Origin: Methanomicrobium sp. W14
GTDB taxonomy: Archaea > Halobacteriota > Methanomicrobia > Methanomicrobiales > Methanomicrobiaceae
Direction of reading: 5' to 3'
Length of the DNA: 64,000 bases
Assembly: GCF_017875315.1 (NCBI RefSeq)
Contig: NZ_JAGGMM010000002.1
Location: 620,001-684,000 of the forward strand
Shown here: positions 29,394 through 32,754 of the stretch, piece after piece
How positions within the stretch are numbered: the stretch's first letter is position 1
Layout: every line of letters starts with the position of its first letter
The notes under the pieces: model-generated
What the model was told of the DNA's origin: nothing
The model's input: only the letters and a program-made list of their open reading frames with translations
The model's database searches: none
Made by a program: the position numbers and the translations under genes

Positions 29394-29894
29394 CTAATAT
29401 TTATCCTCCTTTTGATAAGAATTATTGTCTGTTTTAAGTATACTAAAGGCTCTGTACAATAAATACAGTGTAACAAAGAGCAATGATTCTCCAATTAAAA
29501 AGAATAGAGGATCTTTCTGTATATGGGCAGACCCCTGATACATAAAGCCTTTAAAATAAATACTAATCATTATTCCTCCAAACGCTGCTGTGCAAAATGT
29601 AGCTCCAAGCAATAAAATTATTTTATATCTGTTATCTGGATGAAGTATGCGTTTAGCTTTTATAGTAAGTGTATATGGATGCCATTTCCGGCTTTCATCA
29701 GCTTCAATAAATTCTGAATGAATTAGTTGAGCAATGTGTTGATGAACTGTTGATTTTGATAATCCCAGTTCATATGAGAGTTCTGTAAGTGTGTATGATT
29801 TTTTATCAATTAATTTTAATAAGGATGCCCTGACATCTGAAGATAAAGCAAAAAGGTCTTCTTTACTTAGTTTAATCTCATTCAAGTTATCCAT
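29394..29894 (-). CDS. Membrane-anchored winged-helix regulator
   Basis: A 166-residue protein. Residues about 10-85 form an ArsR-like winged helix (ALSSDVRASLLKLI, LTELSYELGLSKSTVHQHIAQL as recognition region). Two transmembrane helices follow (about 91-115 and 127-150), with a short charged tail. Archaea have many such one-component membrane regulators. It is the last in a same-strand group with the PepSY-like and clan CD peptidase-like genes, in an AT-rich island, so I infer it controls them. It is separated from the PepSY gene by 158 bases. Confidence 0.75.
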   Translation of the reverse strand: MDNLNEIKLSKEDLFALSSDVRASLLKLIDKKSYTLTELSYELGLSKSTVHQHIAQLIHSEFIEADESRKWHPYTLTIKAKRILHPDNRYKIILLLGATFCTAAFGGIMISIYFKGFMYQGSAHIQKDPLFFLIGESLLFVTLYLLYRAFSILKTDNNSYQKEDKY

Positions 29895-30052
29895 GTTTCA
29901 GAATATTCCTGCAAAACCGTCTTCAGTCAATGGTCGTTCGTTCTGCACTTAATAAGTATATTTTAAATTTATATAATCTATTTTGTGAGTTATATTTAAA
30001 AGAGGGTTAATTTAAAAATTAAATTTTTTTAATAAATTGTTTCAATTAATCT

Positions 30053-30832
30053 CTAGCATAGAGGACTTTCTAAAATTACTTCTCCTGTTATTGCATTAAT
30101 TATAACTAATCCTCCATAAGGAGTATCATTAACTGGCTCTCCTTCTAAATAGATTACCCATGTTAATGTTTGAGTATCTGCTTTAGTATATTCTATAGAC
30201 AGGTAACAATTCTGTTCTTTAATTTTAATCTGAGGAAATTGTTCTTTTGCGATTGTTATTGCCTTATCCTCAGAAACTTTTGGTTCAGTATTACAATTAA
30301 TTTCGCGGTGAATACCAATATAGGATGTTATTTCTCCGGACTCTGGGTTTATATCTATTGCGACTGAATTTGGTGTAAATACACCATTAAGGCTCTCTCT
30401 CCAGACATATGAATATTCATAACCAGCATCGGCATGATCAAGAAGCTCTGAATATGTTATTTTCATATTCATCTTCTCAAAACCATTGTACTTTTCTTTT
30501 GCGTATTCTTCGCCTATTTTTATAGATTCAGAAGAGTCTATAAGAACCTTCTTTGATGTTTCTTTAGCATTGCTGAATGATGCACGTTCAACTAGGCCTG
30601 AGTATTTATTTACATAAATCTGCCCGTTTCCTGTTTTAAATACATAGTATTCTCCAATGTCATAGTTTTGTTCATACAGGTACTCTATATCAGTGTTTGA
30701 ATTATCAATGAAATTGGTAGCATTTATTTCTGCGGAATTAATTCCTATTGGTGTTTTGGTGTATATTGCGGATGTAGCTGCAATCATTGACAGTAGACAA
30801 ATAATACTAATTATTATAACTGTTTTCTTCAT
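30053..30832 (-). CDS. Secreted PepSY-like protein
   Basis: A 259-residue protein with a clear signal peptide (MKKTVIIISIICLLSMIAATSA). Two PepSY/YcdB-like units can be made out: about 90-175 (SIKIGEEYAKEKYNGFEKM through SVAIDINPESGEI) and 188-257 (KAITIAKEQFPQIKIKEQN through GLVIINAITGEVI). PepSY domains are known from propeptides of secreted proteases and were proposed to inhibit proteases. It begins 15 bases after the peptidase-like gene, so the two are co-transcribed. I infer it is the partner or inhibitor of that protein. AT-rich like its neighbours. Confidence 0.72.
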   Translation of the reverse strand: MKKTVIIISIICLLSMIAATSAIYTKTPIGINSAEINATNFIDNSNTDIEYLYEQNYDIGEYYVFKTGNGQIYVNKYSGLVERASFSNAKETSKKVLIDSSESIKIGEEYAKEKYNGFEKMNMKITYSELLDHADAGYEYSYVWRESLNGVFTPNSVAIDINPESGEITSYIGIHREINCNTEPKVSEDKAITIAKEQFPQIKIKEQNCYLSIEYTKADTQTLTWVIYLEGEPVNDTPYGGLVIINAITGEVILESPLC

Positions 30833-30847
30833 TAGTTCTCACTCCAC

Positions 30848-31564
30848 CTAGATCGTTCCTTGTCTTGCAGGGGTAAGACAAACATTTAAATTTCTGCCAT
30901 TTTCAACATATGCTTTATATGTATCTATTCCATGGTATCCAATTGGAATACACCAGAAACAGTCGTCTTTGGCATTTGATATCGCATTAGATACAGTTTC
31001 ACCATTTTTTGTACGTTCCCAGAAATTTTCGGACCAACATTTGCCATTATTTGTTTCAATTTCACCAGTAAATCCGATACTCATGTCAACTCCTTTGTCT
31101 TTGCTTATACTAGCGATATTCCCATTATATTGATTTGTATATGATGAATAGCAAGAAATGTAGACAGCTAGTAGTGAATCATCAATGTCATTTGAATTAT
31201 ACCCGTCAATGAAGTATCTGCTACTCCCGGGATTATGTGAATTATCATATTTCCCTAAAATCCATGATTCGTCTGAAAATTTAATTCCTCCTCCTTTTGT
31301 CCCGTCTGAATATGATAATCCGTGACCATTAAAGAAAAAAATCGAATCATATTTAAATTTAGCATAGGCATCGTAGGCTACCGCATTTGTTTGCGAATAT
31401 GATGGAGAATAACCCATTTCAATTTGATCCATTTTGGCTTCGTTAGCTGTTGGTGTTGTAATCAAATCCCCATTTATTGAAAAGTCAAAGTTGTCTGTCC
31501 TGTATGCACTTGCTGAACATACAATCATTGCAATTAAGCCAATTAGTAATATCATTCTTTTCAT
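30848..31564 (-). CDS. Secreted clan CD (caspase-like) cysteine peptidase candidate
   Basis: A 238-residue protein with a signal peptide (cleavage probably after CSASA). Two hydrophobic strands each end in a catalytic-type residue: YDSIFFFNGHG (His81-Gly82) and LLAVYISCYS (Ser137-Cys138). This hydrophobic-HG then hydrophobic-(A/S)C order is the hallmark of clan CD peptidases (caspase, gingipain, clostripain, CHAT). Downstream, VDMSIGFTGEI and WSENFWERTKNGETVSNAI match the CHAT-like strand and helix pattern. I do not recognise a named family. SD AAGGAGGGG precedes the ATG; a PepSY gene follows after 15 bases. Activity is inference. Confidence 0.65.
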   Translation of the reverse strand: MKRMILLIGLIAMIVCSASAYRTDNFDFSINGDLITTPTANEAKMDQIEMGYSPSYSQTNAVAYDAYAKFKYDSIFFFNGHGLSYSDGTKGGGIKFSDESWILGKYDNSHNPGSSRYFIDGYNSNDIDDSLLAVYISCYSSYTNQYNGNIASISKDKGVDMSIGFTGEIETNNGKCWSENFWERTKNGETVSNAISNAKDDCFWCIPIGYHGIDTYKAYVENGRNLNVCLTPARQGTI

Positions 31565-31577
31565 AATTGCCCCTCCT

Positions 31578-31599
31578 TAAGACCTATTTCAAGGTCTTA
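31578..31599 (-). promoter_or_regulatory. 8-bp inverted repeat in leader of peptidase-like gene
   Basis: TAAGACCT and AGGTCTTA flank ATTTCA, immediately upstream of the SD. A TATA-like run lies about 60 bases from the start (31621-31640). It could be an operator for the linked winged-helix protein or an RNA hairpin that masks the SD. Confidence 0.5.
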
Positions 31600-31793
31600 G
31601 AAGTAATTCGAAATTATGTAGGTATATATATAAAAAATATAAAGAGATTGTTCGTAAATTCCCGAATTTGTCATATAATATATCTGGATAGTTAATCATA
31701 ATGGTAAATACTATGATGTATATTACATACACAAATTAAACTAAAAATGCGTTATTTAAATGTCTCTAATTTAAGCAATTCAGATGTAAATAA

Positions 31794-32573
31794 TTACCAG
31801 CAGCCGCATGGCATATTAAACCCGTCGCTTGCATTTAATATCAAATTGACGTCTGACTTTTGATATGAGTAACTTTCGCATTCCGGGCATAAGTCCTCTA
31901 TTTTGTGAAATATGTTTCCTGTATCAGTGAACTCTTCGGGACTGTGTACTGTTAGTTCAAGCAGATAGGATTTTTTGGAATTCGGCATGAACAAGTCTGA
32001 AATAATTCTGTATTCCCTGTATTCTCCGTTTTTCAGGTCTGAAACATTTATTCTGCCTGTATAAACGGTTAACCCGTCGTCATAGTCAATATCAGGGCCT
32101 GTAATAACGTTGCCTGCATCAATGCAGTTCGATTTTATCTCGTATGCCTTTAATGTCACATTAAATTCGGCATATCCGCAGTCGACGCCTGTACCGTCGT
32201 ATATCAGGTAGTCTATTCCCAGTTTATTGTTCTTGATGGATATGTTCGGAGTATACCACAGATTTTCCCGGTTATCCGGGTCAGACAGGTCTTTACTGAA
32301 TAAATTTTCGACATATACAGGTATGTTGCATTTCTCCTGGTTGACGACAATGAAACTGCCTGAAGTGTTGTCATATGTGATAACCGGAAAAATAACATCT
32401 TCATCTTCAATAATCAGACCATATGGTGCAAACCATTCCGGCCTGCTGAGCGGCTCAGAATTATATTGGTTGTTGTCCTGAGCAGTCAGTATTAGAATAT
32501 TTACCAGAACTATTGTAATAACCGCTGAAATTACAACGAACCATTTTACTTGTCCTGAAAGTTTCAGACTCAT
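31794..32573 (-). CDS. Membrane-anchored or secreted hypothetical protein
   Basis: A 259-residue protein that I do not recognise. Residues 11-30 form one hydrophobic segment after a basic start, a signal anchor or signal peptide; the remainder looks extracellular, with several N-x-S/T sites (NTSG, NISI, NVTL and NVSD). A pattern of beta strands (FNVTLKAYEI and YLLELTVHS) suggests an immunoglobulin-like or DUF1616-like fold. Cysteines near the end (CPEC, CGC) may bind metal or form disulphides. It is 229 bases upstream of the peptidase-like gene on the same strand, but its base composition is closer to the rest of the genome. Confidence 0.55.
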   Translation of the reverse strand: MSLKLSGQVKWFVVISAVITIVLVNILILTAQDNNQYNSEPLSRPEWFAPYGLIIEDEDVIFPVITYDNTSGSFIVVNQEKCNIPVYVENLFSKDLSDPDNRENLWYTPNISIKNNKLGIDYLIYDGTGVDCGYAEFNVTLKAYEIKSNCIDAGNVITGPDIDYDDGLTVYTGRINVSDLKNGEYREYRIISDLFMPNSKKSYLLELTVHSPEEFTDTGNIFHKIEDLCPECESYSYQKSDVNLILNASDGFNMPCGCW

Positions 32574-32754
32574 CCTGCATCCAACCTTGGAATACTAATA
32601 GATTATTTCTTCTTTTGGTAATATTTCTTTGAAGGCCGCGGAGTTAATATATTGCGAAATTGTTCGGTAAAAAACGAAATGAAATATCTTTTATTGCCAA
32701 CTGGATTCCTTTTGGGGGGTCTTCATGAATATTTAAAAAGCAGTATCTGAAATC

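Follow-up and report, generated by a model that had tools for sequence, protein, structure and literature searches.

Several described systems bring an enzyme together with a separate or built-in inhibitory protein. In Bacillus spores, the hydrolase SleB is encoded in one operon with the PepSY protein YpeB, which is thought to hold SleB inactive (PMC13393411). YpeB is also needed for the stable incorporation of SleB, and the two proteins stabilise each other (PMC6660665). A survey of archaeal dark matter took double-PepSY proteins to be likely inhibitors of proteases that had still to be found (PMC6393860), and the secreted clan CD peptidases of the gingipain and clostripain types found in other sediment archaea (MBG-D) were read as protein degraders (PMC6461988). 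The protealysin-emfourin operon of Serratia encodes a protease and its own inhibitor, the former being an intracellular metalloprotease and the latter described as a separate family. In the thermolysin-family (M4) metalloproteases, such as vibriolysin MCP-02, the PepSY-containing propeptide is part of the enzyme chain, and such propeptides serve folding as well as inhibition.

We have analysed a 64,000-nucleotide stretch of DNA (the window) from the 2.54-Mb genome of Methanomicrobium sp. W14, in which the gene of a putatively secreted caspase-like protein (CASP) precedes that of a PepSY protein (PEPSY). The locus shares with sleB-ypeB the arrangement of a secreted hydrolase gene and a PepSY-protein gene in one operon; however, SleB is a cell-wall lytic enzyme and not a peptidase, methanogens make no spores, and, unlike PEPSY, YpeB is membrane-anchored and carries an additional N-terminal domain. 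Whereas the M4 propeptide lies within a metalloprotease chain, PEPSY has its own gene and its neighbour a cysteine-peptidase fold. The likeness to protealysin-emfourin is one of operon layout, and no relation is claimed. By analogy, the CASP-PEPSY pair most likely functions in the manner of SleB-YpeB, or of a protease whose propeptide has been split off, while being neither. In the open-access literature we found no description of this pairing.

Genes and sites of the cassette

The first-pass annotation of this DNA had proposed a three-gene unit (CASP, PEPSY and a winged-helix gene, HTH) lying in an AT-rich island. The three ORFs had the coordinates and the shared strand that it had given, CASP and PEPSY were 15 bases apart, and its reading of the dyad residues, of signal-like N-termini and of two membrane helices was likewise confirmed. 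The unit itself turned out to be longer, taking in a fourth gene (UP259) and operator-like sites:

30848..31564, minus strand: CASP, 238-aa secreted protein resembling clan CD cysteine peptidases (from the AF2 model, Foldseek, the CHAT profile match and dyad conservation)
30053..30832, minus strand: PEPSY, 259-aa secreted triple-PepSY protein, YpeB-like; predicted CASP inhibitor, pro-domain or holdase (from Pfam, AF2, Foldseek, adjacency and fusion)
29394..29894, minus strand: HTH, winged-helix protein of 166 aa with a pair of membrane helices at its C-terminus; predicted cassette regulator (from Pfam HTH_5, family hydropathy and palindrome co-occurrence)
31794..32573, minus strand: UP259, 259-aa protein whose single N-terminal membrane helix is joined to an outside domain; candidate sensor or anchor acting together with HTH
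31651..31666: operator-like site before CASP, ATTCGGGAATTTACGAAC (minus strand), 86 bp ahead of the start codon and differing from TTCGG-N6-CCGAA at one position
32663..32678: operator-like site before UP259, TTTCGTTTTTTACCGAAC (minus strand), 89 bp ahead of the start codon, likewise with one mismatch
31622..31643, minus strand: candidate TATA-box region of CASP, TTTATATTTTTTATATATATA, as read from the sequence

CASP and PEPSY both start with a hydrophobic segment (residues 1-23 and 1-26, respectively) with an A-x-A-type end, and from these signal sequences we infer that both proteins are exported. The CASP dyad consists of His81 (codon 31322-31324, preceded by DSIFFFNG) and Cys138 (codon 31151-31153, preceded by LLAVYIS). 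In HTH, the winged helix (Pfam HTH_5, 2.3e-7) is followed by membrane helices at residues 90-114 and 128-148. UP259 matched no Pfam family; its assignment is based on homologues found in the CASP-PEPSY-UP259-HTH operon and also in UP259-HTH pairs without CASP. An Rfam search returned no structured RNA.

The AT-rich island is real in the window, where the cassette has a GC content of 32-36% against about 44% nearby. The Methanoculleus operon, by contrast, has 59-63% GC, mostly equal to or above that of its own flanks; thus, AT-richness does not define the system and we have rejected it as a marker. PdxK and a glycosyltransferase gene flank the cassette, and they also stand at the corresponding place in three congeneric genomes, where the cassette is missing. 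We rejected entry of the cassette at a tRNA or through an element bounded by terminal repeats, as no tRNA was found in the window and the cassette edges carry no convincing repeats. Plasmid or virus cargo was likewise rejected, with relatives being absent among the plasmids and viral contigs searched.

Predicted fold and family of CASP

The caspase-haemoglobinase fold had been set as the test for the 238-aa protein, and AlphaFold and Foldseek both pointed to it. The AlphaFold (AF2) model, built from an alignment with 25 relatives, had a pLDDT of 87.9, and its DSSP assignment showed a strand at residues 75-79 followed by His81, three short strands, and a strand at residues 132-136 followed by Cys138. 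This is the arrangement by which clan CD is defined, with the His ending strand 3 and the Cys ending strand 4, in that order (PMC4357240). The Foldseek search against the PDB gave 29 matches at E<=1e-3, all of them to clan CD except for a DdvA entry at rank 28, and including SAVED-CHAT (best E-value, 1.4e-8), gingipain R (best TM-score, 0.60), separase, caspases, MALT1, TPR-CHAT and relatives. The sequence profile alone matched a CHAT protein (4e-5), and hhalign against archaeal TPR-CHAT domains gave 95.9% with both catalytic residues aligned.

Against Pfam and NCBIfam, CASP reached the cut-off of no family, C11, C13, C14, C25 and CHAT included, and a named family was therefore rejected; the best sub-cut-off Pfam matches of members were DUF6345 (0.0028), CHAT (0.01) and C13 (0.037). 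Its modelled fold and its dyad place CASP in clan CD, outside every named Pfam peptidase family at cut-off. It has in common with the gingipains (MEROPS C25) and the CHAT-domain peptidases the fold and the order of His and Cys, but differs from them in falling below every Pfam cut-off, in being a single small secreted domain, and in having no N-terminal prodomain in its own chain, the partner being encoded separately. Despite the SAVED-CHAT match, association with a defence island or CRISPR was rejected: in PADLOC, CASP, PEPSY and UP259 had no defence-model match, and HTH matched only the generic winged helix of other regulators.

The dyad was conserved as the first-pass reading demanded, at 33/33 for His81 and 31/34 for Cys138 among the homologues. 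Even in copies of very low identity the His is invariant, and only three copies lack the Cys; these carry Phe and keep the His. Fold, profile match and conservation together led us to reject the dyad as a chance motif. The three Cys losses are second copies directly behind a PEPSY gene, in genomes G015, G016 and G024, and in G015 and G024 a Cys-bearing copy precedes the same PEPSY gene that the Cys-less copy follows. These Phe-for-Cys copies (L055:7645-8361, L059:5926-6657 and L063:7805-8539) are possible pseudoenzymes. Among close relatives, the median dN/dS was 0.145 for CASP, 0.325 for PEPSY and 0.455 for UP259, so that CASP is under strong constraint. A C-terminal end of the form L-x-P-A-R-x-G (window 30848-30900) is conserved in close and distant CASP copies.

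The PEPSY partner protein

PEPSY matched Pfam PepSY (PF03413) with an E-value of 2.8e-6 and 28 bits, above the cut-off of 24. Its AF2 model (pLDDT 88.9) displayed three helix-plus-four-strand repeats, which together with the signal peptide make up the 259 residues. In Foldseek, the best matches of the model were to the YpeB C-terminal domain (5boi, 2.6e-10) and, at 6e-5, to the vibriolysin MCP-02 propeptide. As modelled, PEPSY has the PepSY-repeat fold of the YpeB C-terminus; it does not belong to YpeB, since the SleB-binding N-terminal domain is absent and the neighbour is CASP rather than SleB. The genome of the window also holds a PEPSY paralogue without a CASP neighbour (G000:C3:451296-451982), located beside mechanosensitive-channel-like and other secreted genes.

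CASP and PEPSY are paired, sometimes fused and co-inherited

CASP was present in 34 of the 232 genomes of the class, the named relatives of the window belonging to Methanoculleus, Methanogenium and Methanoregula, and it also occurred elsewhere in the phylum, including one Archaeoglobales record. The recurring PepSY neighbour anticipated by the first-pass annotation was found: once the CHAT-like matches had been set aside, PEPSY immediately followed 37 of the 44 CASP ORFs, at a distance of -11 to +24 bp, and was fused to two others, a count that, like the operator count given below, is dominated by close relatives. The five remaining ORFs were the three Cys-less copies, one broken-gene fragment and one copy cut by a transposase gene. 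PEPSY thereby follows directly on essentially every Cys-bearing CASP across Methanomicrobiales, Archaeoglobales and other Halobacteriota, and even very divergent members (L121, L125 and L126) retain it. A whole-genome scan for the pair used patterns of the close clade only.

The two fusions are independent of each other and differ in architecture, one being PKD-CASP-PepSY (L069:4481-7363) and the other RCC1-CASP-PepSY (L120). The CASP and PEPSY trees contained the same strongly supported groups, and these cross host families (for instance G016 with G193, and G112 with G083). This supported that the pair moves as a unit. The second CASP copy of the window genome (L036:5825-6688) has its 3' end overlapped by a transposase gene and has lost the PARYG-type C-terminal end, and no PEPSY was found within the surrounding 14 kb.

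A palindrome co-occurs with the membrane winged-helix gene

In the CASP clade nearest the window the majority gene order is CASP-PEPSY-UP259-HTH, while in the window and in L054 UP259 is placed before CASP. The relatives carry the palindrome GTTCGG-N6-CCGAAC upstream of CASP, next to the TATA box and mostly 87-93 bp before the start codon. Within 250 bp, 18/19 loci of the HTH group had the exact core TTCGG-N6-CCGAA, against 0/12 loci without HTH; shuffled sequences gave an expectation of 0.005 loci per set. One of the 19 (L048) ends before the expected place of HTH, so that its HTH lies outside view. L054 and L125, which are distant from the rest, also carry the palindrome (40 and 157 bp). This co-occurrence is in line with the earlier prediction that a membrane regulator controls the pair. 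The exact core is rare genome-wide, with eight occurrences in the 2.6-Mb genome G075, half of them around the CASP locus.

In the window, the site at 31651..31666 has the same position as the exact palindrome in the relatives and was equalled in 5/2000 shuffles; both window sites jointly were equalled in 0/2000. The position of TTTATATTTTTTATATATATA relative to the palindrome is that of TTTATA in the relatives. The operon HTH proteins keep both membrane helices, as judged by hydropathy, and UP259-HTH pairs without CASP (G082 and G101) bear the palindrome as well. These observations suggest that HTH binds the palindrome, and UP259 is predicted to act as the outside sensor. Just before the CASP ribosome-binding site there is also a perfect 8-bp palindrome, TAAGACCT-TGAAAT-AGGTCTTA (window 31578-31599), which we have dropped as an operator, as it is absent in the relatives and was equalled in 30/1000 shuffles.

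A parallel design in other putative secreted proteases

The same palindrome stands before neighbouring Methanoculleus genes that encode further secreted proteins, their signal peptides being similar. One encodes a metzincin (HELGHLFDAGH; Reprolysin_5 2e-4, below cut-off) and is transcribed away from CASP. Another encodes a DUF6345 protein (PF19872, 1.3e-50) and is followed 9 bp downstream by the gene of an FTP/PepSY-like protein, and a third encodes a 334-aa secreted protein. G079 has, next to another metzincin gene, a further UP259-HTH pair with palindromes of its own; downstream of this metzincin gene lies a separate copy of its N-terminal (propeptide) region (L166:238-2547 for the two; 41.5% over 171 aa). 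A metzincin with a stand-alone N-terminal copy is found elsewhere in the genome of the window too (L241/L242, G000:C2:325172-327603). UP259, the operator and this wider set of co-regulated proteases go beyond the first-pass annotation.

Across the class (L164:6681-8396 in G075, and L211-L240), most DUF6345 copies have the HG/C dyad and an FTP-like gene nearly always lies downstream at -34 to +18 bp; in L237 the two are fused. In hhalign, DUF6345 aligned with CASP at 95%, dyad included, and the FTP-like proteins aligned more weakly with PEPSY (83%, signal peptides included). The DUF6345 pairs share with CASP-PEPSY the gene order, the dyad in most copies, a fused form and the Methanoculleus operator, but DUF6345 is a family separate from CASP and its partner is only distantly PepSY-like. 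By these sequence comparisons, DUF6345 with its FTP-like neighbour is a putative second caspase-like family with a split partner.

A proposed mechanism and its alternatives

The fold, the dyad conservation, the near-obligate pairing, the fusions, the co-inheritance and the operator-regulator co-occurrence are computed results. We consider, with a probability of roughly 0.62, that they reflect a secreted clan CD cysteine endopeptidase with a separately encoded PepSY inhibitor or pro-domain, under membrane winged-helix control through the palindrome. CASP is thereby predicted to be a peptidase and PEPSY to inhibit it. Both proteins would be exported, and outside the membrane PEPSY would bind CASP and keep the enzyme folded yet inactive, until PEPSY was displaced on a signal, or cleaved, and CASP was freed. 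The membrane-bound HTH would set expression by acting on TTCGG-N6-CCGAA, a short way upstream of the TATA box, and its probable partner would be the membrane-anchored UP259, serving as an outside sensor. Candidate substrates are the cell's own surface layer, its own surface proteins (for signalling), foreign cells and detrital protein. The first-pass annotation had named competition, self-processing and signalling as possible purposes of such a pair.

Inhibition is the leading reading because PEPSY resembles YpeB and a protease propeptide and because double-PepSY proteins were proposed as inhibitors (PMC6393860). Folding or stabilisation is a close rival, and the data appear to fit both. PEPSY might be a dedicated export or folding chaperone (a steric foldase) or a stabiliser, with CASP being active once folded; the double function of the M4 propeptides and the mutual stabilisation of YpeB and SleB speak for such a role, and the strict co-inheritance suits either one. 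Yet PEPSY copies kept without CASP in the same genome are not better explained by a chaperone than by an inhibitor, and we regard the chaperone role as rather unlikely. The parallel designs, DUF6345 with its FTP-like protein and the metzincin with its N-terminal copy, suggest a split partner. Counting against the endopeptidase-inhibitor reading are the second CASP of the window genome, which lacks an adjacent PEPSY, although a PEPSY from elsewhere could act on it, and the three Cys-less copies that are maintained. The latter indicate that a non-catalytic role exists in the CASP family; that CASP at large is a non-enzymatic surface or signalling protein of clan CD fold is nevertheless highly improbable, given that the His is invariant, that every remaining copy has the Cys even at very low identity, and that the gene is under strong constraint.

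CASP might also be released or surface-displayed against neighbouring archaea or bacteria, with PEPSY protecting the producer. The patchy distribution, the transfer between families, the empty sites and the orphan PEPSY copies would suit such a toxin-immunity role, which has been proposed for protealysin-emfourin. However, a delivery module, tandem diversified immunity genes and polymorphic toxin domains are all absent, CASP evolves slowly, and co-regulation with other exoproteases equally fits surface or substrate processing, which leaves interference improbable. A broader and doubtful possibility is that Methanomicrobiales have an exoprotease arsenal that is regulated and moves horizontally. 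Its secreted proteases, of at least three kinds (CASP, DUF6345 and metzincin), would each have a separate propeptide-like partner and answer to one UP259/winged-helix switch through GTTCGG-N6-CCGAAC, the propeptide in trans serving self-protection during surface interference or remodelling.

Many methanogens thus probably carry a secreted caspase-like enzyme with a restraining partner in the next gene. With a caspase-fold partner that is constant, co-inherited and sometimes fused, the PepSY-inhibitor hypothesis becomes testable with two small proteins. The comparison also offers a possible function for the Pfam family of unknown function DUF6345, extends clan CD by a secreted methanogen branch, and points to a candidate operator with its regulator that may govern surface proteolysis in archaea.

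Two kinds of side observation were made. In G075, the 334-aa secreted protein at L042:1513-2517 belongs to no assigned family, and its signal peptide is nearly identical to those of the DUF6345 protein and the metzincin. Decayed copies of the cassette at L203:6867-8629 (G185) and L209:7322-8796 (G089), in which no CASP was detected, consist of a short PEPSY remnant, UP259 and HTH, and L203 retains the operator.
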